Below are positions 499 to 20,833 of a stretch of DNA of 21,756 nucleotides, in pieces. The stretch covers positions 1 through 21,756 of the IMG/VR virus record IMGVR_UViG_3300012964_000063. The stretch is one strand, 5' to 3'. The notes beneath the pieces are model-generated. The model saw only the letters and a program-made list of their open reading frames with translations. It did not search any database and had not been told where the DNA came from. How positions within the stretch are numbered: position 1 is the stretch's first letter; every line of letters starts with the position of its first letter. The translations under genes and the position numbers were made by a program. The stretch is from a virus.

Positions 499-1377
499 AT
501 GTCTATCAACCTCGGCGGCACTCCCAGCGCCACCACCAACGCGGCCGTCATCAGCTATGACGTCTCCGTGAAGATGGCCTATCAGGGCTCGAGCCGTCTG
601 CGCAACACCGTCACGGTGAAGTCGGGCGTCACGGGCGCTTCCCACAACTTCCGCAAGTTCGGTGCGGGCGTTGCGTCTCAGCACTCCAGTGCCGAGCTCA
701 TCACCCCGGCGGACTACACGCACGCCAAGGTGGCGGCCACCCTGTCGAATTGGCGCATCGGTGACTACACCGACCTGTTCGACCAGGCCGAGACCACGGT
801 TGACGAGCGCGCTGCGCTCGCCGAGTCGAACGCCAAGGCGATCGGCCGTGCCGAAGACCAGCTCATCATCGACGCACTCGACGCGGCCACGAGCCTCGCC
901 GGTACGGTCGACGAGGATCTGGGTGCGACGAACTCTCCCATCAACAAGGAAAAGCTGCTCCGCGCGAAGCGGTATCTGACGGCCAAGCAGGCTGACGCCA
1001 CCCAGCACACGCTGCTGGTGAATGCGATCGGCATGGAAGGCGCGCTGTCGGAAGTCGAAGTGACGAGCGCTGACTACCAGACCATGCGCGCGCTGGCCGA
1101 GAACGGCGGCACGCTGCAGGGCAAGTCGGCCTTCGGCTTCAACTGGGTGGTCCTCGAGGACCGTGCGGAGGGTGGCCTCCCGGTGGGCTCGGCGAGCATC
1201 CGCCTGTGCTTCGCGTACGATCGTTCCGCGGTCGGTCTCGCGACGGCGCTCGAGCCGTCGACCCGCGTCGACTTCATTCCCGAGCGGTACGCTTACCTCT
1301 CGCAGGCGGTCCTCAAGGCCGGCGCGACGGTGATCGACAGCAACGGCGTGGTCGAGGTGCAGTCGTACGAGGCGTAA
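499..1377 (+). CDS. Major capsid protein
   Basis: This 292-residue protein is called as the shell-forming major capsid protein. It has a mixed alpha/beta composition, with an early region (about residues 25-75) resembling the N-terminal arm and beta strands of podoviral coat proteins (KMAYQGSSRLRNTVTV, then HNFRKFGAG). A helical middle follows (about 95-130, with ALAESNAKAIGRAEDQLIID), typical of the HK97-fold spine helix. No transmembrane segments are present. The start ATG is preceded by AAAGG nine bases upstream. Position also supports the call: a small head gene lies before it, a strong terminator after it, and gp11/gp12-like tail genes downstream, the T7 layout. The family feels like the T7-like / Phage_capsid_2 type, assigned from memory rather than by search. 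Confidence 0.85.
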   Translation: MSINLGGTPSATTNAAVISYDVSVKMAYQGSSRLRNTVTVKSGVTGASHNFRKFGAGVASQHSSAELITPADYTHAKVAATLSNWRIGDYTDLFDQAETTVDERAALAESNAKAIGRAEDQLIIDALDAATSLAGTVDEDLGATNSPINKEKLLRAKRYLTAKQADATQHTLLVNAIGMEGALSEVEVTSADYQTMRALAENGGTLQGKSAFGFNWVVLEDRAEGGLPVGSASIRLCFAYDRSAVGLATALEPSTRVDFIPERYAYLSQAVLKAGATVIDSNGVVEVQSYEA

Positions 1378-1383
1378 GCCTCA

Positions 1384-1418
1384 AGGGGCCGGGTAACACC
1401 GGCCCCTGTCTTTTCCTT
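1384..1418 (+). terminator. Strong intrinsic terminator after the capsid gene
   Basis: AGGGGCCGG (1384-1392) pairs perfectly with CCGGCCCCT (1399-1407) around a 6-base loop GTAACA. It is followed by a pyrimidine tract GTCTTTTCCTT (1408-1418). It starts six bases after the capsid stop. It is placed like the T7 T-phi terminator after gene 10 and would limit transcription of downstream genes relative to capsid. Confidence 0.88.
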
Positions 1419-1441: not shown

Positions 1442-1738
1442 ATGGCTTACTCTCGCGCAAACCTCCAGCGCGTCGGCCCGCAGAACTCCAATGCGCCGAC
1501 CCTCTGGACCTACTCGGACACGGGTTCGGCCCTGACCACGATCGACGGCAGCGGTTACTTCAATGACGCTGCGGACGTGCTTCAGGTCGGCGACGTGATC
1601 TTCGTCAACGCCTCGTCCAGCACTTTCGGCATTCAGGTCGTGCGCAGCAATACGCGCGACATGACGGCTTCACCGCCGGTCGAAGGCGTGGTCGATACGT
1701 CCAACGCGGTCGCGCTGGGTTCGATCAACAGCGACTAA
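1442..1738 (+). CDS. Probable head decoration / head-accessory protein (98 aa)
   Basis: This small protein of 98 residues begins at an ATG with GAGGA eight bases upstream. It is predicted to be beta-rich. The segment GSGYFNDAADVLQVGDVIFV (about residues 37-56) resembles a motif seen in phage head fibre or decoration proteins and in the C-terminal domains of structural proteins, where a 'GYF..A.d.LqvGD.I.v' strand pair recurs. It sits directly after the capsid gene and is bracketed by two intrinsic terminators, so it may have its own transcript level. A role on the capsid surface is inferred from size, composition and location. The biochemical function is unknown, and it could also be a tail-adaptor accessory. 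Confidence 0.65.
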   Translation: MAYSRANLQRVGPQNSNAPTLWTYSDTGSALTTIDGSGYFNDAADVLQVGDVIFVNASSSTFGIQVVRSNTRDMTASPPVEGVVDTSNAVALGSINSD

Positions 1739-1748
1739 GATGAGTCGC

Positions 1749-1781
1749 AACCGGGGGCGGCCTTCGCCCCCGGTTCTCTTT
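1749..1781 (+). terminator. Strong intrinsic terminator after the 98-aa gene
   Basis: AACCGGGGGCG (1749-1759) pairs with CGCCCCCGGTT (1765-1775), an 11-bp perfect stem with a 5-base loop GCCTT. It is followed by CTCTTT (1776-1781). It starts ten bases past the stop of the preceding gene. It is the second such element within 400 bases. Confidence 0.88.
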
Positions 1782-1802
1782 AACGCACAAGGAATTCTCG
1801 AA

Positions 1803-2045
1803 ATGGCATTCGTCAGTTTCGCTCGAGCCATGCAGAAGCCCGCGTTTCTCAAGGCCGCCAAGGCCGCAGGACTGCGCGGCGAGTCCGACATGGCTGATCG
1901 CACACGGCGCGAGGCGCAGACCAACCACACCTGGGCGAAGTATCCGCCCGGCGCTGGCACGGACGCAATTGCCGCTCCGCGTGTCAACGGCAACATCAAG
2001 ATCGACATCGCCGCAGCCAAGACTGCGCATCTGGCGCTGAGTTAA
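1803..2045 (+). CDS. 80-residue unknown small protein
   Basis: The ATG at 1803 has AAGGA nine bases upstream and lies just after the second terminator. A longer in-frame start at 1740 would place the terminator stem inside the gene, so 1803 is preferred. The product is soluble and has no membrane segment. The N-terminal half is basic and alanine-rich (residues 7-24), and the C-terminal half has a patch RVNGNIKIDIAAAKTAHLAL. The family is not recognised. It is the first gene of the unit that continues into the enzyme block, so it may be a virion accessory protein or a partner or substrate of those enzymes; neither is shown. Confidence 0.65.
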   Translation: MAFVSFARAMQKPAFLKAAKAAGLRGESDMADRTRREAQTNHTWAKYPPGAGTDAIAAPRVNGNIKIDIAAAKTAHLALS

Positions 2046-2065: not shown

Positions 2066-2668
2066 ATGCCGGCACTGCTGGTTGTTGGCTCGGCCCCGTG
2101 TGCACAAGCGGACCTCGCCAAGGCCCGCGCGATGTACTCGGACGCCGAGATCATGACGGTGAACGGCGCGTGCACGATGGTGCGTGATGCGCAGCACATG
2201 CTGAGTGGGCACACGGCCAAGGCCAAGGAATTCGTCGCGGCGCGCAAGAAGGCGTTCCCTGACGCTTCGCTCCCGCGCGTGCATGCGAACACGCTGAACA
2301 AGCACCTGAACTCCAACAAGGTCGTGCACCCGATGGTCACGGACTGGTGGGGCGGGGAGATGTCCAGCGGCGCGACGAGCGCGGGCAAGGCGGCGCTGAT
2401 CGGGATAGCGATGGGTTTCCATCCGATCATTCTGTGCGGTTGCCCGATGGACGGCAGTGGGTATGACCCGGCAGAGGCCGTCGTCCCGCAGGACAGATCC
2501 TGCGCGCGGATCGGCGACGCTGCGATGCAGAACCGCCGGACGATCATGGGTTACCGTGAGAAACTGATCTCGCTTGCGCGCACGGTGTTCAAGGACAAGG
2601 TGTTCAGCATGTCGGGGTTCACCCGGCAGCATCTGGGGACCCCTCCTGAACAGGACTGGACATGCTGA
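2066..2668 (+). CDS. MptE/DUF115-like Rossmann-fold protein ('norphogenetic protein' type)
   Basis: This 200-residue protein starts at an ATG with a strong AAGGAG just upstream. The N-terminus LLVVGSAPCA (residues 4-13) is a nucleotide-binding Rossmann turn. Later, TSAGKAALIGIAMG (about 104-117) is followed by a hydrophobic strand and CGCPMDG (124-130). This is the layout of DUF115/MptE-like proteins, where a conserved 'G.iI..GcD' strand follows a helix. Phage members are often annotated 'norphogenetic protein'. DUF115 members include enzymes acting on sugar or pterin diphosphates, and some occur in glycosylation loci. Its stop overlaps the next start (2662), so the two are translated together. 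Specific activity is unknown; a role in preparing or transferring a sugar group is inferred. Confidence 0.65.
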   Translation: MPALLVVGSAPCAQADLAKARAMYSDAEIMTVNGACTMVRDAQHMLSGHTAKAKEFVAARKKAFPDASLPRVHANTLNKHLNSNKVVHPMVTDWWGGEMSSGATSAGKAALIGIAMGFHPIILCGCPMDGSGYDPAEAVVPQDRSCARIGDAAMQNRRTIMGYREKLISLARTVFKDKVFSMSGFTRQHLGTPPEQDWTC

Positions 2669-3543
2669 TCTGGGCGCTGGACGACCGCCCGTACGACCAC
2701 TACGGTCTTGAACTGCAGTCGGCCGGCATCGCGCGCGGGCACGACGTGCGCTTGTTCAAGCGCGCGGAACAGGTGACGGCACCTGGCTACGTGTTCATGC
2801 GGCTCGATCAACGCGAACCGCGACTGACGTTCGACCGGCAGCAGTACAGCGCGCTGGTCGGCCGCGAAGGACTGAAGTTCATTCAGGACCCCGGCCAGAT
2901 CCACGCGTACGAAGACAAGTTGGCGCAGACGATGATGTGGCGTACGTTCATGCCGGAGACGCAGATCATGACGTCTCGCGACACGGCGCAAACGTACGCG
3001 CACCTCGCGCCGTACCCGCTCGTGTCCAAGTCTGCCATCGGCTCGGCCAGCCACAACGTTCGGCTTCTGCAGGACGACAGCGCCGCGCAACGAGAGATCG
3101 CGGCGATCTTCAGCAAGAACGGGATGGCTGTCTCGCTCGGGCGGCAGAAGGACTACTGGTTGATCCAGCGGTTCATTCCGCACGAAGTGACGTACCGCGT
3201 GACTGCCGTCGGCACGAAGCGGCACATCTACCAGCGGTTCAACTTCAAGGACCGTCCGATGGCCGCGCCGTCGGCGGTGATTCCGACGCAGCCTCTGCCG
3301 ATGGGCCCGCTGGCCGAGACGGTGCTTGAGTTCAGCAACAAATTCTTCGCCGCAGCAGAAACTCAGTGGTGCGCGATCGACGTGATAGCTGGATCTGACA
3401 AGCTATACCTACTCGAAACGGCATTGGGTTGGGCTCGAGGCAACGATGCCAGCGGCAATGCGCTGTTCTACGGCACGAAGCACTCGCTCTTGACGCAGCA
3501 CGAACTGCTGCTCGACGAAATCGAGGCCGGAGTGTTCGGGTGA
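2662..3543 (+). CDS. ATP-grasp family enzyme (RimK-like ligase candidate)
   Basis: This 293-residue protein has the ATP-grasp layout. The N-terminal domain (about 1-75) ends in a D-rich helix start (DPGQIHAYEDKLAQTMMW, 76-93, the usual 'D..NK..q..l' step), then MPETQIM (97-103). The ATP-binding strand carries K123 with a glycine/serine-rich loop (SKSAIGSASHNV). WLIQRFI (166-172) matches the adenine-side 'v.QefI' strand. D240 in CAIDVIAG and E252 in YLLETALGW fit the metal-binding acidic residues. Family members ligate an acid to an amine or thiol with ATP, including peptide tagging by RimK. The start overlaps the previous gene by 7 bases, and its stop overlaps the GTG of the next gene. The acceptor is unknown. 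Late expression suggests a virion or small-molecule target. Confidence 0.8.
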   Translation: MLIWALDDRPYDHYGLELQSAGIARGHDVRLFKRAEQVTAPGYVFMRLDQREPRLTFDRQQYSALVGREGLKFIQDPGQIHAYEDKLAQTMMWRTFMPETQIMTSRDTAQTYAHLAPYPLVSKSAIGSASHNVRLLQDDSAAQREIAAIFSKNGMAVSLGRQKDYWLIQRFIPHEVTYRVTAVGTKRHIYQRFNFKDRPMAAPSAVIPTQPLPMGPLAETVLEFSNKFFAAAETQWCAIDVIAGSDKLYLLETALGWARGNDASGNALFYGTKHSLLTQHELLLDEIEAGVFG

Positions 3544-4250
3544 GCCGCTACCAACGTTCGGTAGTTCTCGTTACGTGGTTGTGGCGCAACGGCTGGCGGC
3601 CGGGCATGTACGATCACAGACATGTGAATCGCCTCTACCGTCAGTTACAAAGGCACATGACGGGGAAGTGGAAATTGGTCTGCGTGACCGACGACCCTAC
3701 GGGTATCGAGTGCGAGACCTTCCCGCTGTGGTCCATGCCTGAGCCGCTGTTGCCGGAATTGAAGGACCCCACACCGAATTGCTACGCGCGGCTGAAGTTG
3801 TTCGACCCCGGCACGGCGTGCCTGTTTGGCGCCGACCTGTTGGTGTCGATCGATCTGGACACGACAGTGTACCGCGATCTCAGCCCGCTCTTTACGGACG
3901 AGCCGTTCAAGATCATGCGCAACGAGCGCGCGGATACGGCCAAGTATTGCGGCACACTGTGGCAACTGAGGCCGGGCGCGCATCCCGAAGTGTGGCGGGA
4001 CTACGACCCGGTGCTGACTCCGCACATCACGTACACGGATCTCGGGTTGTACGGCAGCGATCAGGCGTGGTTGTCGCACAAGATCCCGGACGCCCCGACG
4101 TGGGGTCCGCGCGACGGAGTGCTGTGGAACAAACGCTGTCGGACGCACAAACTGCAGGACGGCGTACGACTGATCTACTTCGCGGGAGATACCAAGCCGT
4201 GGGACGAGAAGTGCCGGCTAACGCATCCAGCACTGTACACGCCGCTATGA
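3540..4250 (+). CDS. GT-A-fold glycosyltransferase 1
   Basis: This 236-residue protein starts at GTG 3540, overlapping the upstream TGA in a GTGA junction. It has a beta strand and helix at the N-terminus (VVLVTWLW), a nucleotide-sugar domain with VCVTDDP (48-54), and a DxD motif in SIDLDTTVYRD (104-113; D105/D107). Downstream are YGSDQAWL (171-178) and a final YFAGDTKPWD (213-222), matching the 'SDQ.wl' and 'F.G..KPw' signatures of GT-A enzymes of the GT8-like kind. It would transfer a sugar from an NDP donor using a metal ion. It shares these motifs with the second GT at 4840-5514, so the two are paralogues. The acceptor and sugar are unknown. No signal peptide or membrane segment is present, so it acts in the cytoplasm. 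Confidence 0.82.
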   Translation: MSRYQRSVVLVTWLWRNGWRPGMYDHRHVNRLYRQLQRHMTGKWKLVCVTDDPTGIECETFPLWSMPEPLLPELKDPTPNCYARLKLFDPGTACLFGADLLVSIDLDTTVYRDLSPLFTDEPFKIMRNERADTAKYCGTLWQLRPGAHPEVWRDYDPVLTPHITYTDLGLYGSDQAWLSHKIPDAPTWGPRDGVLWNKRCRTHKLQDGVRLIYFAGDTKPWDEKCRLTHPALYTPL

Positions 4251-4864
4251 AGTCCCCCGCGCGCGACCCACATTTCGCGACGAACTCGGTGCACGGCTAC
4301 TGGGCGCAGGAACCACTCATCAAGAGGGTGCTGTCCTTCGTGCCGCAGCGACGGGCCGCGGTCGACGTCGGTGCGCACATCGGTGTGTGGACGCAGATGT
4401 TGGCCGCGCAGTTCAAGCAGGTCTATGCGTTCGAGCCGGTCGCCGAGAATTTCGAGTGCTTGCGCGCGAACGTCGATCAGCCGAACGTACACCTGCATGC
4501 GGTGGCGCTTGGGGCGGGTTGCGGTTTTTGTGACCTGACTCTCCCGACCGGAGGCAACTCTGGCACGTGGCGCACCAAGCATCGCGTCGGAGAAACCCTC
4601 GTGGTGCCTCTCGACGCGCACGGTTTGTTGGACGTCGACCTCATCAAGATCGACACGGAAGGCACGGAGGGCGAGGTTCTTCAGGGCGCCAGAGAGTTAC
4701 TCGAGCGCTGTCACCCGCACGTGTTCTTCGAGGACAACGGTCTCGGGCAGAAGTATTTCGGGAAGGACTGGGCGAACCCGCGCAGCGTGCTCGAGGAGTT
4801 CGCGTACGTCCGGATTGCGCGACTGCAGAAGAACGAGTTGTGGGCGCCGAAACTCTCACGGTAG
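4247..4864 (+). CDS. FkbM-family SAM-dependent methyltransferase
   Basis: This 205-residue protein starts at ATG 4247 in an ATGA overlap with the preceding stop. SAM motif I is AVDVGAHIGVWT (38-49), followed by the acidic strand end YAFEPVAEN (60-68). IKIDTEGTEGEVLQGA (133-148) is the diagnostic FkbM signature, and HVFFEDN (158-164) follows. FkbM enzymes methylate hydroxyl groups, often on sugars or polyketides, and many lie in glycan loci. Between two glycosyltransferases, O-methylation of the sugar being attached is the simplest reading. That is inference; direct methylation of a protein acceptor is an alternative. It is full length for the family. Confidence 0.88.
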   Translation: MKSPARDPHFATNSVHGYWAQEPLIKRVLSFVPQRRAAVDVGAHIGVWTQMLAAQFKQVYAFEPVAENFECLRANVDQPNVHLHAVALGAGCGFCDLTLPTGGNSGTWRTKHRVGETLVVPLDAHGLLDVDLIKIDTEGTEGEVLQGARELLERCHPHVFFEDNGLGQKYFGKDWANPRSVLEEFAYVRIARLQKNELWAPKLSR

Positions 4865-5514
4865 CGTGCGTCTACCGTCCTGGCGGCGGGTTTGATGACT
4901 CGTACGTCTACAAACTGCGCGACGCGTTCGGCCGGCACTTGCACGTTCCTCACCGCTTTGTGTGCCTGACAAACCGGCCGCTGACCGTTGATCGGATACC
5001 ACTGGAGCGGCGGTGGCCTGGCTGGTGGTCGAAGCTGGAGTTGTTCCGGGCCGGACTGTTCTCGGGGCCCGTGTTCTACACGGATCTCGACACCGTGATC
5101 GTGAGCGACGTGACCGACATTGCAACCGCTGCATATGACTTCGCGTGCGGAACGAACTGGAAAGGCTGCGGCACGCACATCAGTTCAGCGGTCATGGCGT
5201 GGGATGGCCGGACAGACCTGAGTAACATCTATCAGTCGTTCGATCTCGCGGCGGTTGAGCGGTACGAACAGAGTTGGGAGCGATGGGGCGATCAGGGCTG
5301 GATTCAGGATCACTTGAATCGGCCCTTCAAGTGCCTGCTGAAACGGTGGCCGAACCGCATCGTCCACACCAAGACGCACGTCTGGAAGGGGCGACACGCG
5401 ACCAACGCTCCGGCGCCCAAAGACGCTTCGATTGTCTGCTTCTCGGGGCGCCCACGGCCGCACGAACTGCCGCCGGGCAACCCACTACTGAGGGCATGGA
5501 ATGGCGAACATTGA
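4840..5514 (+). CDS. GT-A-fold glycosyltransferase 2
   Basis: The frame has no ATG near its start. GTG 4840 gives 224 residues and overlaps the methyltransferase by 25 bases; it is the best start because conserved sequence (VACVYRPGG) begins just after it. The DxD motif lies in FYTDLDTVIVSD (79-90; D82/D84). WSKLELFR (63-70) is the usual helix before the DxD strand. SSAVMAWDG (115-123) fits the acceptor-side strand, WGDQGWIQ (149-156) matches the 'DQ.wi' motif, and VCFSGRPRPHE (199-209) matches the terminal 'F.G.PrPh'. It shares this motif order with the enzyme at 3540. Its end overlaps the tail tube gene by 14 bases, tying the block to virion synthesis. Donor and acceptor are unknown. Confidence 0.8.
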   Translation: MGAETLTVACVYRPGGGFDDSYVYKLRDAFGRHLHVPHRFVCLTNRPLTVDRIPLERRWPGWWSKLELFRAGLFSGPVFYTDLDTVIVSDVTDIATAAYDFACGTNWKGCGTHISSAVMAWDGRTDLSNIYQSFDLAAVERYEQSWERWGDQGWIQDHLNRPFKCLLKRWPNRIVHTKTHVWKGRHATNAPAPKDASIVCFSGRPRPHELPPGNPLLRAWNGEH

Positions 5515-6064
5515 GACCCAGACCAAGATCGGCTTGCTGTCGAAGGCTCTTATTTTGATCGGAGAAAAGCCGCTCAACTCTCTGTCCGACGAGCGCTATG
5601 GCGCCACGGTCGGTTCGAACCTGTTCGAACTCATCTACGAGAACGAACTCCAGTCCAATCGCTGGCGCTTCGCCTGCGCCAAGGTAGCGCTCAGCCGCCT
5701 TGTCGATGTGCCGCTCAACGAGTGGCAGTACGCTTTTCAGCTTCCCCCCACCATGCTGCTGCCAATCGGCATTTTTCCCGCAGCCCCTTACGAAATCTAC
5801 GCAGACCGCCTGTACACGGAGCAGTCGACTATCGAGTTGGACTATATGTTCAAACCCGACGTCACGGCCGTGCCTGCGTACTTCTCGACGCTGATGGTCT
5901 ACGCGCTCGCGCGGGACATGGTCAAACCGATCACCGAATCGGAGAACGCGGTGGTCACGTTCATGAAGAAGTACCAGTTCCAGCGGGACCGCGCGATGTT
6001 CGCGGACGCGCAGGGCCGGCCGAACTCCTCGATCGTCTACTCGCCCTTCACGGATGTCCGGTAA
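5501..6064 (+). CDS. Tail tubular protein A (gp11-like)
   Basis: This 187-residue protein is close in length to T7 gp11 (196). It begins with a helical segment (QTKIGLLSKALILIGEKPL) followed by LSDERYGATVGSNLFELIYENEL and RWRFA. These are hallmarks of the gp11-type adaptor, which joins the portal to the tail nozzle. Aromatic-rich middle residues (YAFQLPP, YEIYADRLY) and a PAYFSTLMVYALA helix follow the family pattern. The start ATG has GAGGG at 5490-5494. It is followed at once by the gp12-like gene, the normal pair. Confidence 0.88.
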   Translation: MANIETQTKIGLLSKALILIGEKPLNSLSDERYGATVGSNLFELIYENELQSNRWRFACAKVALSRLVDVPLNEWQYAFQLPPTMLLPIGIFPAAPYEIYADRLYTEQSTIELDYMFKPDVTAVPAYFSTLMVYALARDMVKPITESENAVVTFMKKYQFQRDRAMFADAQGRPNSSIVYSPFTDVR

Positions 6065-8575
6065 GTGCGCACGCACGTTCTCCAGAACAACTTTTTGGCC
6101 GGGGTTCTCGACCCGCGCGCCAAGACGCGCGTGGAAACCGCGAGCTACAACAATGGACTGCTGGTAGGCGTGAACATCACGCCGCACCAGCTCGGCGGTG
6201 TGCGGCGCCGGCAGGGGCTGAAGTACCTCGCCACCGTGCCGAATCAGCTGACGCGCATCAGCTCGGGCATCACGGCCACGGCACCGAATGGCGGCACGGC
6301 GAACAACGCCAAAGATGACAGCAACACGACATTAGTGACGACTACGAGCACTGTCGGCACGACCGATCCTTTCATAGTCGTCCACTACGATCTGGGTAGC
6401 GCGAAGTCTGTGCTGTTCGCCGACGTCGAGGATATCTACAGCGACGGCGGGTCGAGCACGCAGTTCCGCATCCAGTACAGCACGGACGACAGCAACTGGA
6501 CCACGTGGGGCACCGCGTTCCCGGCGCTTGATGTCACGGCGCGCAGTTATCGCCGGGGTGGCACCGCCGTCTCGGCCCGCTACTGGCGAGTGGTCAAGAT
6601 CGGCGGCACCGACATGGGCGCGGTGCACATCACCCTCGCGAACTTCACCCTGTGGCAAGACGCGGGGACCATATCCGCCGGGCGCCTCTTCGGATGGGAA
6701 GTCTCTACCGAGAGCCGGTACATACTCGCGCTCACGGACCGCTCGGCAACGATCTTTTCGGCCGGGGTACAGGTGGCTCAGCTGCCCTCCCCGTACGCGA
6801 ACGCAGATCTCGCGGAACTCGACGGCACGACCAGTGCCGAGTCGCTGATCGTCGTGCACAAAGACTACGCGCCGCGGTTCTTCGTGCAAGAACTGGATGG
6901 GAATTTCCAGACCTTCCAGATCGTGTTCGACAGCGTGGCCAGCTTCGACTACAACGACAGCAGCAGCCCGACAGCTACTTCGGACGTGCAGGCCATCGTC
7001 TTCGCCTCGGGGTGGGTCGAAGGAGACACGTTCCAGATCTCGCTGGGCAAGGGCGCCCTCGGCGAAGCGAAGTCCGCTGCGGTGTCTTTCGCCGGCGACA
7101 ATGCCACGACTGCGGCCAACATCCAGAGGGCGGTACAGGACCTCTGGACGGTGCAGGCATTCGACGGCGTGACTTGCGCGCGCACAGGCGCGCTGACGTT
7201 CACGGTCACGCTCGCCAATGCCAGCGCTGCGGCGTACGACAAGATGACTGGTATTCCGCTCAGCAGTTCGGCACAGATAGCGGTAACGCATTCCGCGACA
7301 GGAACTTCGCGAACCGAGCCGGTGTGGAGCGCGACTCGCGGGTATCCGCGCACAGTGGCGTTCTTCGAAGGGCGCCTGTACTTCGGCGGTACCCGATCGC
7401 GCCAGCAGACGCTCATCGGGAGCCAGGTCAATAACCCATTGGCTTTCGAGATCGGCGAGGGACTGGCCGACGACCCTGTCATGATTACGCTGAACGGCGC
7501 GCAGCTCAACGCGATCACGGGGCTGTTCGCCGGACGCACGCTGCAACTGTTCACCTCCGGCGGAGAGTTCCGCTACGTGAAGGACCAAGGCGCCCCGGTG
7601 ACACCTGGCGACACCCCGGTCAATCAGACCCAGTATGGCAGTGCGCGCACCAAGCCGGTCACGATCGACGGTGCCACCGTCTATGTCCAGCGGCACAAGC
7701 GTTCGATCCGCGACTTCCGGTTCGACTACACTGAGAACGCCTACAACTCGCTGGGCATCTCGGCGCTGGCCGCGCACCTCGTCTACGACGTCAAGGACCT
7801 CGCAGCGTGGAACGGCTCCGCCGTCGACGAGATCGGTTTGGTGTTCGTGGTCAATGGGGCTAACCCGGACACGAGCACTGACGCGTTCCCCGACGGCACG
7901 GTCGCAGTGCTCAATACGCGCAAGGAAGCGAACATCCAAGCGTGGACGATCTGGACGACCGCCGGAGAGTTCAAAGCCGTAGCCACCGTACTCGAGGATA
8001 TCTATTTCCTTGTTTCGCGAACGCTCAACGGCACGAACGTTCTGACTCTGGAGACCGCGGACTACGACTACTACACCGACTGCGCGACGCAGGTCGCGAA
8101 CAGTCCGGCGTCCACCACAGTCACGGGGCTGAGCCACCTCAACGGTGTTGAGTGTCGGGTGCGCGCCGATGACTTCGTTCTGGAGAACGTCACGCCCAGC
8201 GCGGGCAGCGCCACGATCGCGCGCGCCAGTTTGGCGGTAGAAGTGGGGCTGGACTGGACGCCAGAAGTCACTCCCATGCCCTTGCAGAACATGCTCGCGG
8301 TCGGTTCGAACCTGATGCGCAAGAAGCGCATCGTGAAGGTACGCGCTTCGGTGCGTAATACTTTGGGCCTGCTCATGAACGGCCGGCCGTTGGCTGATCG
8401 GTACTGGGACCAGAACAACTTCGACGAAGCGGCCACGCCGTACACGGGTGTGCATGAGTTGGAAGAGACGACCAACTGGGATCAGGCTGAAGACAAATTG
8501 GTGGCCTTTACGCAGGTTGATCCGCTGCCGATGGAACTTCTTGGCATCGACGTCCAGATGGAAACCTCGGAATAA
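6065..8575 (+). CDS. Tail tubular/nozzle protein B (gp12-like) with an inserted discoidin-like domain
   Basis: The gene starts at GTG 6065, directly after the stop of the previous gene. The first residues (VLQNNFLAGVLDPRAKTRVE, then SYNNGLLVGVNI) match the conserved N-terminus of gp12-like nozzle proteins, which supports the GTG. It is 836 residues against 794 in T7. The protein forms the tail nozzle below the gp11 ring. Residues about 70-198 (bases 6272-6658) are an extra block: VVHYDLGSA, FRIQYSTDDSNWTTWG and ARYWRV follow the order of F5/8 type C (discoidin) folds, which often bind carbohydrate. The core resumes with LFGWEVSTESRYIL. The remainder contains family motifs such as FFEGRLYFGGTRSRQQTLIGS and AYNSLGISALAAHLVYDV. 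The insertion could contact the host surface. Confidence 0.88.
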   Translation: MRTHVLQNNFLAGVLDPRAKTRVETASYNNGLLVGVNITPHQLGGVRRRQGLKYLATVPNQLTRISSGITATAPNGGTANNAKDDSNTTLVTTTSTVGTTDPFIVVHYDLGSAKSVLFADVEDIYSDGGSSTQFRIQYSTDDSNWTTWGTAFPALDVTARSYRRGGTAVSARYWRVVKIGGTDMGAVHITLANFTLWQDAGTISAGRLFGWEVSTESRYILALTDRSATIFSAGVQVAQLPSPYANADLAELDGTTSAESLIVVHKDYAPRFFVQELDGNFQTFQIVFDSVASFDYNDSSSPTATSDVQAIVFASGWVEGDTFQISLGKGALGEAKSAAVSFAGDNATTAANIQRAVQDLWTVQAFDGVTCARTGALTFTVTLANASAAAYDKMTGIPLSSSAQIAVTHSATGTSRTEPVWSATRGYPRTVAFFEGRLYFGGTRSRQQTLIGSQVNNPLAFEIGEGLADDPVMITLNGAQLNAITGLFAGRTLQLFTSGGEFRYVKDQGAPVTPGDTPVNQTQYGSARTKPVTIDGATVYVQRHKRSIRDFRFDYTENAYNSLGISALAAHLVYDVKDLAAWNGSAVDEIGLVFVVNGANPDTSTDAFPDGTVAVLNTRKEANIQAWTIWTTAGEFKAVATVLEDIYFLVSRTLNGTNVLTLETADYDYYTDCATQVANSPASTTVTGLSHLNGVECRVRADDFVLENVTPSAGSATIARASLAVEVGLDWTPEVTPMPLQNMLAVGSNLMRKKRIVKVRASVRNTLGLLMNGRPLADRYWDQNNFDEAATPYTGVHELEETTNWDQAEDKLVAFTQVDPLPMELLGIDVQMETSE

Positions 8576-9084: not shown

Positions 9085-10673
9085 TGGCTCTCCGATACCG
9101 CGAACTGCAGGCCCCGACCGTGATACAGCCGGGGTATTACGATGGCGGCAGCCGCGAGGCCGCGGCCGCGTTGAGCGATACGCTGGGAGCCTTCGGCAAA
9201 CTGGCGACCGACTATGGCGTCAAGCAGGGCACCGCTCGCGGTGAGCAGGCCGGGGCGCAGGCCGGCGCCAGCGGCAACCCGGACTTCAAGAAGGGCATGT
9301 GGCTCATGACGGCGTATGGTCAGGCGTTCAACAATTCGGCGATGCGCAGCTACGCGATCAAGTCCGAAGCCGACGCCGAAGATCAGGCGGCCCGTCTTGA
9401 GGTGCAGTCGGCAGACAACCCGGACACGTTCCGCCAGCTCTACGGGCAGGTGGCACAGGAGACGCTCAAACACGCGCCGCCGGAAGCGCGCGCAGTCCTG
9501 ACGGATCTCTACAACAAGCGGATGATCGAGGGCGTCGCGCGTCTGAGCCGCGGACAGGCCACAGAGTACAACAAGCAGGCCCGGTCTGATTTGGCGGAAG
9601 GCATCGGTCGTTCCACGGACCGCATCGCTCGGTTACGTTCGACAGATGACCCGACGCAACACGCGCTGGCCGATCAGGAAGAGGCGAAGTTGGGGTTGAT
9701 GATCGACGGATCTCAGCGCGATGGCACGCTGAGCGCGGTCGAGGCGCAGGCGCTGCACAAAGACGCCTACGACCAGGCGATCACTCAAACCGTGCAGACT
9801 CGCTTCGACAACGAGCTGGGCAACCCGTACGGCGATCCTGTGAAGTTCATCCAGAATCTGCAGGAACAGAACAAGACCAGCGACATCCTCTCTCCTGAAC
9901 AAGAAGACAAGTTGACTGGCAGTCTCTTCGCGCAACTGCGTGATCGCAACGCGTTGCGCACTGAGGCGACTACGGCCCAGCGGTTGGAGCGTGAGCAGCG
10001 TTGGCAGGAAGGCGAGAAGACTGCCACCGAGCTGTGGCTGGGCCACCGGCTCAATAACACAACGCTCCTGCGGATGGTCAGCAGTGGCGATCTGGACCCT
10101 GGCCTTGGCCGCATCTTGGCCAGTTCCCTGACGTCCGCGGCCAGCGAAGGTCCGTCAGATCCTCGCGCGCTCATGGAAGCGACGCTTGATCTGGACAAAT
10201 TGGATGAGCGGCAACTCCTCACTTACCCCGGTCTGTCACGCGGCGATCGTGAGAGTCTCATCAAGAAGCGCGCTGAGAACGCCACCGGCTGGCGCGCCAC
10301 GCAACAGGCGCGCGAGGGCGAGCAGCGTATCGACCGATCTCTGGGCATCGCCCCCGGTACGATGACGGCCACGTTGTCCGACGCGCAGAAGACCGCGCGG
10401 CAACGCGCAATGACGTCTTGGTACAACCAAGTCGACGCATTGCCCCCGCTGGAGCGGCAGGCCAAAGCGATCAGCATTTCCGAGGACGTGATTTCCACCA
10501 CGATCAGCACCGACACGCAGCTGACGATTGAACGCAAGATGCAGAGCCGACAGGCAGTCATCGACGAGTACGCCAAACTGGGCGACCTCGACGAGGAACA
10601 GCAGAAACAGCGGCAGCTTACACTGGACGCTCTTGACTCCTCGATCTCCCGTCTTCGCGCGAAGGTGAAATAA
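9084..10673 (+). CDS. Internal virion/ejection protein in the gp15 position
   Basis: This 529-residue, largely helical, hydrophilic protein overlaps the previous stop by one base (TAATG). AAGGAG lies ten bases upstream. It has no membrane segment or enzyme motif. Charged helices with repeated E/K/R/Q stretches (about 285-305 and 480-525) fit a tube- or core-forming protein. Similarity to T7 gp15 is weak by eye; the assignment rests on position between a gp14-like protein and a large ejection protein, and on composition. It may assemble around the periplasmic part of the ejection tunnel. Confidence 0.6.
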   Translation: MALRYRELQAPTVIQPGYYDGGSREAAAALSDTLGAFGKLATDYGVKQGTARGEQAGAQAGASGNPDFKKGMWLMTAYGQAFNNSAMRSYAIKSEADAEDQAARLEVQSADNPDTFRQLYGQVAQETLKHAPPEARAVLTDLYNKRMIEGVARLSRGQATEYNKQARSDLAEGIGRSTDRIARLRSTDDPTQHALADQEEAKLGLMIDGSQRDGTLSAVEAQALHKDAYDQAITQTVQTRFDNELGNPYGDPVKFIQNLQEQNKTSDILSPEQEDKLTGSLFAQLRDRNALRTEATTAQRLEREQRWQEGEKTATELWLGHRLNNTTLLRMVSSGDLDPGLGRILASSLTSAASEGPSDPRALMEATLDLDKLDERQLLTYPGLSRGDRESLIKKRAENATGWRATQQAREGEQRIDRSLGIAPGTMTATLSDAQKTARQRAMTSWYNQVDALPPLERQAKAISISEDVISTTISTDTQLTIERKMQSRQAVIDEYAKLGDLDEEQQKQRQLTLDALDSSISRLRAKVK

Positions 10674-12028
10674 TGGCTGCCACGGACATCGACTCGCCCG
10701 ACTTCGACGCGCACGCGCTGGTCGAGGCGAACAACGCCAAGGCCGCGCAGATCACGGCGGAGAAGCGAGCCAATTCGTTCATGGGCAAGACGATGCAGGC
10801 GGATCGCGCGATCCACCAGTACGTGCAGGACCTGCCGGGGAACATCTCGGCGGGATTGGTCACGGCGTTCCTCAACACCGCCGACAACCTGAACAAGTAC
10901 GACGAATGGTTCACCACGCCGGCGGACTACGCAGTCGCCAACGCCAAGCAGGGCAAACTGTCCACCGAGCCGACACCGCTCGAGCCGCTCATCCCGGCGG
11001 CCGTCCTCGACCCGGTACGCCGGTTGCGCGACTGGATGGCGGAAGGCAAGACGGGCGTCGCCGACGAGGTCACGCAGGGGATCGCGCAGTTCGCGATCCC
11101 CTACGCGGGATTCGCCAAGGCGTTCGGGCTGGCCAGCGGCGCGGGCACGGCGGCGAATGTGATCGGTACGGCGGGAGCTGACGTGGCGTCGGGGATGACG
11201 GTTCAGACGCCGCACGACGGTCGTATGGCCGATCTGCTCGACCTCGCCCGGCACAGTCACGGCAAGTTTGCGGACGTACTGCACACGATCGCCCCGGACG
11301 GCAGCGCGATCAACAGCTACATTGACTGGATGACGGCGCGCGAAGGCGAGACCGGCGCCGAGGGGCGCTTCAAGAACGTGGTCGACAATCTGGTGTCGAG
11401 CGCCGTCCCGGCGGGGCTCATCTACGCCGGCGCGAAGACGTTCCGAGGAGCTCGCCATATGCTCGGTTTTGGTGCAGAACCGCTCCCGGCGGGGCCCGCG
11501 GCCGCCGCGCCCGCAGCGCCGCCGGCCGCCGCCCCCAAGGCATCGACCCCGGGTTTCACCTTCAGCGCTCCTGAGACCTCCCCGGTGGGCGTGGTCCGGC
11601 TGAACACGACGAATCCGGACATGATGCACGAATACACGCACGCCGGATCTCAGGTGATCCGCGCCCAGCAAGGCGGCGAGGACGTAGGCTTTATCGCTTT
11701 CCACCCGACGGAAGACGGGAAGTTGCAAATCAATCGCAGCAAGATGGCCCCAGACAAGCAAGGCCAGAAGGGCGGGCAGGGCCTGCTGCTGCAGGCGCTG
11801 GACGCGGCCGCCCAGCAGGGCAAGCCGCTGGTGTCGGACAACACCGTCACGGCAGCCCAGCTCCGCGTATACGCCTCGCTGGAGCGGCAGGGCGCCATCC
11901 GGGTCACGTACGCCGAGCCCGCCAAAGTCAAGGCGGCGCTGGCCAAGAACGACCCTCGGGTCGTCGTGAAGGCCCCGGGCAGCGGCCCGCTCGTCACCTC
12001 GATCGAACGCATCACTCCGGGGAAGTAG
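10673..12028 (+). CDS. Ejection/virion protein with C-terminal GNAT-like domain
   Basis: This 451-residue protein overlaps the previous gene in a TAATG junction, with AAGGTG upstream. Residues 1-260 are helical with weakly hydrophobic stretches (about 135-170 and 243-256). An alanine/proline linker spans about 270-292. The C-terminal part (about 325-415, bases 11645-11917) reads like a GNAT acetyltransferase: a strand GEDVGFIAFHP, then QGQKGGQGLLLQALDAAAQQG (the usual acetyl-CoA loop 'R/Q..G.G..Ll' and helix), SDNTVTAAQLRVYASLERQGA (the 's...a...y..L...Gf' ending). The first glycine loop is imperfect, so catalysis is not certain. A virion-borne acetyltransferase could act on a host target after ejection. 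Confidence 0.6.
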   Translation: MAATDIDSPDFDAHALVEANNAKAAQITAEKRANSFMGKTMQADRAIHQYVQDLPGNISAGLVTAFLNTADNLNKYDEWFTTPADYAVANAKQGKLSTEPTPLEPLIPAAVLDPVRRLRDWMAEGKTGVADEVTQGIAQFAIPYAGFAKAFGLASGAGTAANVIGTAGADVASGMTVQTPHDGRMADLLDLARHSHGKFADVLHTIAPDGSAINSYIDWMTAREGETGAEGRFKNVVDNLVSSAVPAGLIYAGAKTFRGARHMLGFGAEPLPAGPAAAAPAAPPAAAPKASTPGFTFSAPETSPVGVVRLNTTNPDMMHEYTHAGSQVIRAQQGGEDVGFIAFHPTEDGKLQINRSKMAPDKQGQKGGQGLLLQALDAAAQQGKPLVSDNTVTAAQLRVYASLERQGAIRVTYAEPAKVKAALAKNDPRVVVKAPGSGPLVTSIERITPGK

Positions 12029-19278: not shown

Positions 19279-19511
19279 AAGCAGCAGACGTTCGTCGGCA
19301 AATTCACTCGCGTGTAGCGGAGTGGGTTCCTTCACTCGGAGGCCGCAGATTCCTTCTGACCGTCGGGTCCGGGCTGATGAACGTGCTGCTTCTGCTGATC
19401 GGCAAGATCAGCCAGGAGACATACCTGACAATCACACTCGCCACGACGGCGGTGTACATCGGGGCCAACACTTATCAAAAATCGAAGGGAGTCCCGGATG
19501 AGCCTAAGTAG
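19275..19511 (+). CDS. Small two-TM membrane protein, holin candidate
   Basis: This 78-residue protein starts at ATG 19275 in an ATGA overlap with the endolysin stop. Two hydrophobic segments are visible (about 26-43, FLLTVGSGLMNVLLLLIG; about 50-66, YLTITLATTAVYIGANT) separated by a short KISQE turn, with charged ends. This is a class II holin shape, and similar small membrane proteins occur beside endolysins in many phages. It overlaps the Rz start at its 3' end. Function as a pore-forming timer is inferred from topology and position. Confidence 0.68.
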   Translation: MKAADVRRQIHSRVAEWVPSLGGRRFLLTVGSGLMNVLLLLIGKISQETYLTITLATTAVYIGANTYQKSKGVPDEPK

Positions 19512-19890
19512 CATTTTCGGCGGGCTGAAGAACTTCGCCAACCCGTGGCTGCTGCTCGCGGTTGTGTTGTTGGTGGCTGGCGCCGGCGCGACAGGATGGC
19601 ACTACGGCGCGACGGTCGAAGCAGGGAAACAGGCGAAGACGGAACTGTTGATCCAGCAGGCCGGGGACGCGGCACAGAAGGCGGCAGCGACCGAGATCTC
19701 GAAGATCAAGGTCGTCAACCAAACCAACCAGACGAGACTCGAACGGGAGATTGTCCATGTACCGGATTTTTCTCAGTGCCACACTGGCCCTGACGCTGTG
19801 CGCGTGCTCAACGATGCACTTACCAACAAAGCCGGGGCCCAGCCCACTGGTCATAGCGTCGTGCCCGATGCTAACGGAGTTGTCCGATGA
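19498..19890 (+). CDS. Rz: Inner-membrane spanin (Rz-like)
   Basis: This 130-residue protein has AAGGGAG (19485-19491) six bases before the ATG. One N-terminal membrane helix (17-35, WLLLAVVLLVAGAGATGWHYG) is followed by a long charged periplasmic helix (about 40-90, ALKE/Q-rich: EAGKQAKTELLIQQ, EISKIKVVNQTNQTRLEREI). This is the Rz topology: it spans the periplasm and, with Rz1, fuses the membranes at the end of lysis. The Rz1 gene overlaps it in another frame, the classical spanin arrangement. Confidence 0.85.
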   Translation: MSLSSIFGGLKNFANPWLLLAVVLLVAGAGATGWHYGATVEAGKQAKTELLIQQAGDAAQKAAATEISKIKVVNQTNQTRLEREIVHVPDFSQCHTGPDAVRVLNDALTNKAGAQPTGHSVVPDANGVVR

Positions 19891-19975
19891 CTCGTTCGGA
19901 ACCGTCGCGAAGAAGCTCGTCGAAGTCGCGGGCCAGTACTACGCGTGTCGTCAAGCGGCTCTCGCCGGTGAGTAA
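19757..19975 (+). CDS. Rz1: Outer-membrane lipoprotein spanin (Rz1-like)
   Basis: ATG 19757 lies inside the Rz gene in another frame and gives 72 residues. The N-terminal signal peptide (MYRIFLSATLALTLCAC) ends in a lipobox LCAC, with C17 the predicted lipidation site. A proline-containing stretch (LPTKPGPSPLV) follows, as in Rz1 proteins, then a short helical C-terminus with two further cysteines (SCPML and YYACRQ). The last third extends beyond the Rz stop. It should partner Rz as the o-spanin. Confidence 0.85.
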   Translation: MYRIFLSATLALTLCACSTMHLPTKPGPSPLVIASCPMLTELSDDSFGTVAKKLVEVAGQYYACRQAALAGE

Positions 19976-20258
19976 GCTGGACCGCTACGGCGAGGAACTC
20001 GCCAGCCACGAGCGGCTGGCATCCATCGAGACCCGGCTCGCCGGCATGGAGTCCGTACACCGCGAGATGAAGCACGCGCAGGAAGGCTTCCGGAAGGAAA
20101 TCATGGAGGCGCTGAGCAGCAGCAACGAGCGGCTGACGCAGGTGCACATCGATTTGGCCCGCTACCGCGGCGCGTGGGGAACGCTGGTCATGGTCTTCAC
20201 CGCGCTGTGGGCGGTCATCACTCTCTCGCGGGACTGGATTCTCTCGCACTTCAAGTAA
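19887..20258 (+). CDS. Coiled-coil protein with one C-terminal TM, possible holin/antiholin
   Basis: ATG 19887 overlaps the Rz stop (ATGA) and has GGAG (19876-19879) upstream, giving 123 residues; GTG 19968 is a shorter alternative (96 residues). The first 27 residues are basic and serine-rich and are forced by overlap with Rz1. The middle (about 30-92) is a predicted coiled coil (EELASHERLASIETRLAGME and further heptads). The C-terminus has one membrane helix (96-113, AWGTLVMVFTALWAVITL). A C-terminally anchored protein beside spanins may be a second holin, an antiholin or another envelope protein. The family is not certain. Confidence 0.65.
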   Translation: MTRSEPSRRSSSKSRASTTRVVKRLSPVSKLDRYGEELASHERLASIETRLAGMESVHREMKHAQEGFRKEIMEALSSSNERLTQVHIDLARYRGAWGTLVMVFTALWAVITLSRDWILSHFK

Positions 20259-20305
20259 TGTGCACATCCTCGATCAAATCGTCGCGTTCGTCAGGGGGAG
20301 CAGAA

Positions 20306-20833
20306 ATGGCCGATACGCAGCAGCGCGCAGCCTACAAATGGGAAGACCAGTGGGAGACTTGGAACCGAGTCTCCGCTTCCGACAGGCGTGTTCGCTCTGC
20401 GATCCGCAGCGCGGAACGCCATTATAAGATTAGGCCCACAAAAATTCTGATCGTCGCCAAGAACCGCAACCATGAGCGGGTCGACGCGCGCACGGGCAAG
20501 GGCAAGAAGCTGACTTCACAGTACGATCCGACGCCGCACACCATCACTATCCGGCCGCGGCACCGGAACGTTGCAGTAGCGCTGCACGAAGCCGCGCACG
20601 CCATCCACGACGAACTGTTCGGCAACCTCTCGCGCCCCGAATTGGAGTCGCACGGGCCGATGTGGCTGGGCATCTATCTATGGTTGCTTGCTGACGCGAA
20701 GGTGGCGCCGCGTCGTGCGCTTCTGGCTTCTGCCAAGTCGTCCGGTCTGAAGTGGCGGCCGCTGGCGTGTGTCGCGCCTGATCGTATCCGTCAGGCTTAC
20801 CGCGGATTCGTGGAAACCGCCGAGTTCGTCTGA
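20306..20833 (+). CDS. HExxH zinc metallopeptidase-like protein
   Basis: AGGGGGAG (20293-20300) precedes ATG 20306, so this start is preferred over ATG 20258 despite the latter's overlap with the upstream stop. The 175-residue product has a metal site LHEAAHAIHDE (93-103; HEAAH 94-98) and, 18 residues later, SHGPMW (115-120). The latter supplies a third ligand candidate (H116) in the 'HGP.W' arrangement of SprT/WLM-like and related phage metallohydrolases. The N-terminus is basic (KWEDQWETWNR, RVRSAIRSAERHY). No signal peptide or membrane segment is present. It is the last rightward gene; substrate and role (host protease, capsid or lysis related) are unknown. Confidence 0.75.
   Translation: MADTQQRAAYKWEDQWETWNRVSASDRRVRSAIRSAERHYKIRPTKILIVAKNRNHERVDARTGKGKKLTSQYDPTPHTITIRPRHRNVAVALHEAAHAIHDELFGNLSRPELESHGPMWLGIYLWLLADAKVAPRRALLASAKSSGLKWRPLACVAPDRIRQAYRGFVETAEFV

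Follow-up and report, generated by a model that had tools for sequence, protein, structure and literature searches.

A variable enzyme cassette between the capsid and tail adaptor genes of a podovirus clade as a candidate virion-glycosylation locus

Glycosylated virions have been described for mycobacteriophages, in which glycans on the capsid and tail-tube subunits shield the particle from immune recognition (Freeman et al. 2023, as cited in PMC12619734). Among bacterial enzymes, the Maf flagellin glycosyltransferases have a central domain, Pfam family PF01973, that resembles Cst-II, and one Maf enzyme also accepts 3-deoxy-D-manno-octulosonic acid (Kdo) linked to cytidine monophosphate (CMP-Kdo) (PMC11339370). 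The present analysis concerns a five-gene enzyme block (positions 2066-5514) of the IMG/VR virus record IMGVR_UViG_3300012964_000063, all 21,756 bases of which are referred to here as the window. The block lies between the genes for the major capsid protein and for tail tubular protein A, a T7 gp11-like adaptor, and codes for a Maf/Cst-like putative glycosyltransferase, an ATP-grasp ligase, a first GT-A glycosyltransferase (GT1), an FkbM-family methyltransferase and a second GT-A glycosyltransferase (GT2). We consider it moderately probable that this block is a variable virion-glycosylation cassette of a podovirus with a Gram-negative host. Its first gene is inherited together with the capsid gene, and those that follow are subject to replacement, gain and loss.

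A core gene inherited with the capsid and exchangeable genes downstream

Relatives were collected from IMG/VR with the capsid protein of the window as bait, which gave 40 loci, nearly all of 56-92% capsid identity and several of them carried by 54-60 kb contigs. A genome scan added one contig of a metagenome-assembled genome (MAG). IMG/VR scans for close relatives with the ATP-grasp protein or tail tubular protein B alone found none, and GT2 alone found one contig. The Maf/Cst-like gene was present at the site in all 21 non-redundant capsid-selected relatives with at least 56% capsid identity that spanned the interval from capsid to adaptor, as well as on the truncated contigs reaching far enough, and it was absent from all eight spanning capsid-baited loci with 33-42% capsid identity. 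Four further loci (L057, L073, L076 and L077), found with the Maf/Cst-like protein as bait, stand outside the count of 21. Among 24 clade loci (the window, L057 and L073 included), a glycosyltransferase (GT) of the phrog_1962 type was found in 21, an FkbM gene in 12 and an ATP-grasp gene in 4. L004 and L018 repeat the full five-gene order with proteins about 43-68% identical to those of the window, so that the order is not due to chance; L012 carried the first three genes before its contig ended. The initial annotation had treated the five genes as one set, which did not hold, as they form no fixed unit and only the first gene is universal. The check it proposed, a search for co-occurrence in other phages, came out in its favour: both the site and its Maf/Cst-like gene persist across the clade, and comparable blocks are found among the head genes of unrelated phages.

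The transferase genes lie within or beside the virion operon and are conserved there among relatives. All 15 phrog_1962 matches in 11 whole contigs, and all six FkbM matches of the whole-contig search, fell inside the capsid-adaptor interval, which makes up 4-20% of each contig, and a full-length Maf/Cst-like match lay inside the interval in 14/14 contigs (an additional match in G007, a fragment of 36 residues, was ignored). The gene closing the cassette ahead of the adaptor gene is usually of the GT2 type.

Exchange of the downstream genes was evident from pairwise comparisons, in which the identity of the Maf/Cst-like protein tracked capsid identity (Spearman 0.83) as did that of the adaptor (0.86), the corresponding values being 0.68 for the last GT and 0.23 for the FkbM protein; the pairs are non-independent, and the coefficients are descriptive. 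The closest relative by capsid in this comparison (L002, 87%) had a last GT and an FkbM protein only 31% and 29% identical to those of the window, and L018, with 70% capsid identity, had 58% and 45%, respectively. Two loci with about 94% DNA identity, L008 and L010, differed by the clean presence or absence of the FkbM gene between the Maf/Cst-like gene and the GT gene. A further stretch without homology between these two lies upstream of their capsid genes (L008:1043-3969 versus L010:7975-9828). The slot of other relatives was occupied by an NAD-dependent epimerase, a C-methyltransferase, a Methyltransf_11 enzyme or a family-2 GT, and collagen-like, fn3 or tail-fibre-like proteins were encoded beside it. 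Proteins with collagen-like and fn3 domains in the capsid-adaptor interval (L013:12155-13225, L020:7096-8301 and L009:7906-11031) are candidate acceptors.

Relatives of the ATP-grasp gene were found in L004, L012, L018 and L073 and additionally in unrelated phages, L085-L091. Six of these seven unrelated contigs carried the ATP-grasp gene followed by a GT gene, with a methyltransferase gene between them in L088, L089 and L090, and the seventh stopped at the ATP-grasp gene. Where the flanks could be read, a portal gene (L085, L086 and L089) or a head-morphogenesis gene (L090) lay upstream and a neck-like gene (L089 and L091) downstream. In L085, the ATP-grasp/GT block lies between duplicate members of a small gene family (7490-8011 and 10924-11445) and looks as if it had arisen or moved with a duplication.

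The predicted enzymes and the layout of the locus

The initial annotation had named the first gene MptE-like, a misleading label, since the protein folds like a CMP-sugar-type GT and no pterin kinase was matched. The AlphaFold2 model of the protein (predicted local distance difference test, pLDDT, 94.8) has the Cst/Maf fold, as in GT42 and Maf-like glycosyltransferases: all eight significant PDB matches in Foldseek (E ≤ 0.001) were the Campylobacter sialyltransferases CstII and CstI or the Maf flagellin GT, with E values of 1.4e-6 for CstII, 1.3e-5 for CstI and 1.3e-4 for Maf (5mu5). The PF01973 match (E 0.016) is under the Pfam cut-off, and a profile search against the PDB returned no Cst and chance methyltransferase matches only. 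Even among members about 30% identical, four residues (G8, P11, H49 and G125) do not vary and two more (N33 and S105) hardly vary. The protein is probably the core transferase of the cassette. A tblastn search of GenBank phages with the Maf/Cst-like and ATP-grasp proteins gave no match, and hence no cultured close relative is available.

The labels given at first to the four downstream genes were upheld. The FkbM protein scored 58.7 bits with PF05050 against a cut-off of 22.7 and carries the motif for S-adenosylmethionine (SAM), and both GT proteins match phrog_1962 and have a DxD motif. As a single query, the ATP-grasp protein had no Pfam match; the profile of its four sequences matched LysX/RimK-type chains of the PDB (2e-4 to 3vpd), and Foldseek matched its model to ArgX/RimK (1.9e-9), the model being of low confidence (pLDDT 66). 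The ATP-grasp fold and the nucleotide-binding lysines and loop were recognised, and the protein, with its altered ExN motif, was filed as a RimK-like ATP-grasp enzyme and not under RimK or LysX.

The arrangement of the block was likewise as first described (Table 1): the stop/start overlaps at 2662, 3540, 4247, 4840 and 5501 are all exact, the five open reading frames (ORFs) are on the plus strand, and the block sits between head and tail genes, with phrog_3437 upstream and phrog_394 and phrog_376 downstream. The latter is tail tubular protein B (7e-100), which together with tail tubular protein A opens the tail gene set. An AAGGAG ribosome-binding site precedes the Maf/Cst-like gene. The GC content of the block (0.61-0.64, and 0.75-0.84 at third positions) is like that of its neighbours, so that by composition the block is not a recent foreign patch. 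The 98-residue protein encoded beside the capsid gene was found in 33 of 34 spanning loci, including phages without the cassette, and is a possible decoration protein or glycan acceptor; the position of the small ORF that follows it is taken in relatives by fibre-like, collagen-like or other variable genes. The hairpin behind the capsid gene fits expression of the cassette by read-through at a lower level, which is suggestive only; the total terminator count in the region was not above that of shuffled sequences. Gene 10 of T7 is likewise trailed by a terminator with read-through. No tRNA or Rfam match was obtained in the window.

Table 1 Features of the cassette site in the window
Feature	Position	Strand	Evidence or remark
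Major capsid protein	499..1377	+	phrog_3437 2.2e-43; left boundary of cassette site
Terminator-like hairpin 3' of capsid gene	1384..1407	+	9-bp stem with 8 G-C pairs
98-residue protein adjoining capsid gene	1442..1738	+	phrog_18004 2.9e-17
Small ORF	1740..2045	+	ORF list; likely real start ATG 1804
Maf/Cst-like (annotated MptE-like) putative glycosyltransferase	2066..2668	+	Fold search, PF01973 0.016; conserved core gene of site
ATP-grasp ligase, RimK/LysX/ArgX class	2662..3543	+	Profile versus PDB, Foldseek
GT-A glycosyltransferase 1 (GT1)	3540..4250	+	phrog_1962 1.8e-9; GTG start, DxD motif SIDLDTTV
FkbM-family SAM methyltransferase	4247..4864	+	PF05050 1e-15; phrog_8156 6.8e-25; motif VDVGAHIGVWT
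GT-A glycosyltransferase 2 (GT2)	4840..5514	+	phrog_1962 6.5e-32; GTG start, DxD motif YTDLDTVI
Tail tubular protein A (T7 gp11-like adaptor)	5501..6064	+	phrog_394 1.1e-34; right boundary of cassette site

A Gram-negative host, that is, one with an outer membrane, is indicated by an Rz-like spanin gene (phrog_1152, 19498-19975), which is overlapped in another frame by a small ORF (19751-19975) resembling an o-spanin lipoprotein (LTLCAC). A MAG contig labelled Nocardiaceae (L043) carries a clade phage with 72% capsid identity, which conflicts with the spanin evidence and was probably misbinned. Tail tubular protein B, the nozzle, probably contains a galactose-binding-like domain of F5/8 type C (6275-6595, residues ~71-177), with matches to PF22633 (6e-4) and PF00754 (9e-4) that are both below the cut-offs, and this domain is a possible sugar-binding module. 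Among the remaining genes, a putative internal virion protein (10673-12028) has a weak match to GNAT acetyltransferases at residues ~317-400, and a small protein (20174-20833), with no PHROG match, has an HEAAH zinc-protease-like motif.

Proposed action of the cassette and competing explanations

A virion target is favoured by the placement of the block and by the variation of the cassette. The target, donor sugar and chemistry that we infer are as follows. The Maf/Cst-like enzyme, to judge from its fold and place, would attach the initial sugar to an abundant virion protein at a residue exposed on it (Ser or Thr, by analogy with Maf), the candidate acceptors being the capsid protein, its 98-residue neighbour or the fibre-like proteins encoded at the site. 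Because no CMP-sugar synthetase was found among 15 virus records and an outer-membrane host is indicated, the donor may be a CMP-sugar of the host, for example, CMP-Kdo, which every Gram-negative cell that makes Kdo can supply. GT1 and GT2 would then lengthen the chain and the FkbM enzyme would O-methylate the glycan, as is suggested by their families; the ATP-grasp enzyme, whose role is the least certain, may attach an amino-acid or peptide-like group to the sugar or protein. Exchange of the cassette would alter the surface coat of the particle in a serotype-like manner, with consequences for adsorption, evasion of surface recognition or stability. We put forward only tentatively, as rather doubtful in its entirety, a more specific proposal in which a stripped-down Maf-like enzyme O-glycosylates a virion protein throughout the clade with a host CMP-sugar (Kdo or nonulosonic acid), and the exchangeable cassette writes phage "serotypes", the ATP-grasp enzyme adding amino-acid groups to the coat.

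Several observations weigh against virion glycosylation. Position in a late operon is no proof of a virion target. In L057, L076 and L077, the Maf/Cst-like gene lies between capsid and adaptor genes with no recognised GT, and L016, L043 and L057 are clade loci without a GT of the phrog_1962 type; the product of the core gene may thus work by itself or have another role. As the capsid proteins of L076 and L077 are only 40-43% identical to that of the window, the core gene may also predate the GT cassette. All four ATP-grasp members read E-T-A/S in place of the usual ExN metal motif. Finally, Q155 of the Maf/Cst-like protein is conserved at what we take, from an alignment by eye, to be the position of the catalytic His188 of CstII, and the chemistry may differ.

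The main rival is a host-directed glycan, in that the enzymes would modify a surface structure of the host (lipopolysaccharide, capsule or flagellin) late in infection, for example, to keep released particles from sticking to debris or to exclude rivals. Phage GTs are known for host seroconversion (PMC12619734), Maf itself acts on flagellin, a cell-surface protein (PMC11339370), and an integrase-like gene in 2/15 virus records suggests that some of these phages may be temperate. However, the genes are inside the virion operon and not in a lysogenic-conversion position, neither a membrane flippase nor a Gtr-like protein was seen among the scanned genes, and the capsid-to-connector placement recurs in unrelated phages; we regard this explanation as unlikely. 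It is less likely still that the junction behind the capsid gene is merely a moron hotspot tolerant of any insert, with enzymes that share no particle-linked function: the Maf/Cst-like gene is in every clade member and co-inherited with the capsid gene, the recognisable inserts are sugar or methyl enzymes or surface-fibre-like proteins rather than random cargo, and GTs occur nowhere else across the 11 contigs, even though cassette genes come and go and non-enzymatic or unrecognised variable genes are also found at the site (L002, L004, L016 and L043).

Little credence is given to the remaining three explanations. Glycosylation of modified bases in the phage genome, although a role known for phage GTs (as cited in PMC12619734), is very improbable in view of the structural-operon location and of the action of Cst/Maf-fold enzymes on glycans or proteins; a thymidylate-synthase/hydroxymethylase homologue was found in 0/15 virus records, which may be incomplete and in which other base-modification routes were not searched. 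Synthesis of a small glycosylated or peptide-like molecule of the graspetide or glycopeptide type, released to the host or medium, would suit the resemblance of the ATP-grasp protein to RimK and graspetide ligases, but no precursor-peptide gene or exporter was recognised in the block and most cassettes are without ATP-grasp, and we rate it lower again. The least probable explanation is a nucleotide or pterin metabolic enzyme unrelated to glycans, to which the Pfam name of PF01973 and a thiamine pyrophosphokinase placed 49th in the fold search (E 0.08) would point; Cst sialyltransferases and Maf fill the first eight places of that search, and in L075 an MptE-like domain is fused to GTs.

Comparison with related blocks and described systems

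Tetraselmis viridis virus S20 (NC_020840.1) resembles the clade in having an enzyme block immediately ahead of the head-closure gene Hc1, made up of sialyltransferase-like, GT, methyltransferase, FkbM and GT genes. The FkbM protein and last GT of this block are homologous to those of the clade and match its profiles at 3.5e-45 and 2.4e-39. The gene upstream of this block, annotated as hypothetical, would by its position be the capsid gene. Unlike the clade, S20 has unrelated siphovirus-type head and tail genes, and no ATP-grasp gene was recognised in it. In L075 (7229-9490), a GT-MptE-GT fusion forms a single frame of 746 residues, with a second GT domain that is GT-A-like; a head gene and genes for a sialyltransferase-like protein and a UDP-glucose dehydrogenase are close by. 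In Citrobacter phage phiNP, a sialyltransferase-like gene overlaps a GT gene of the clade family (1.6e-64), and this pair sits between lysis and terminase genes. P1 PmgQ and P7 HdmD are, like the phiNP GT, homologues of GT2 (28-34% identity) that are not located between capsid and connector genes, and PmgQ is nonessential in P1 (PMC10695390). Alignment with hhalign of the Maf/Cst-like protein to the single sialyltransferase-like sequences of S20, phiNP and L075 gave short, low-probability matches only, and homology in sequence is therefore not claimed. Nevertheless, this GT family is repeatedly found together with Cst/Maf-type or sialyltransferase-like genes, in several lineages beside connector genes.

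With the Maf flagellin GTs, the phage protein has in common the fold, the PF01973 relationship and a proposed transfer of a CMP-linked sugar to protein, whereas at ~200 residues it is without the N- and C-terminal domains of Maf. The second gene is similar in profile and fold to RimK/LysX/ArgX ligases and differs in its ExN motif. The mycobacteriophages are actinobacterial siphophages with glycosylated virions; we know of no Maf/Cst-like core, ATP-grasp partner or exchangeable cassette described for mycobacteriophage glycosylation. In incomplete literature coverage, no paper joining phage, FkbM, glycosyltransferase and ATP-grasp was found.

If virion glycosylation by this cassette is true, phage particles bear genetically swappable sugar coats, like the O-antigens of bacteria, phage surface variation becomes a readable locus, and the presence of sugar enzymes among the capsid genes of many environmental phages is given a reason. 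It would also offer a source of compact Maf-like enzymes for protein glycosylation, and the L008/L010 pair, one methyltransferase apart at the site, is a natural comparison. Virion glycosylation as such is known; what is new here is the fixed site throughout a clade, the Maf/Cst-like core, the exchangeable enzymes downstream of it and the ATP-grasp partner.

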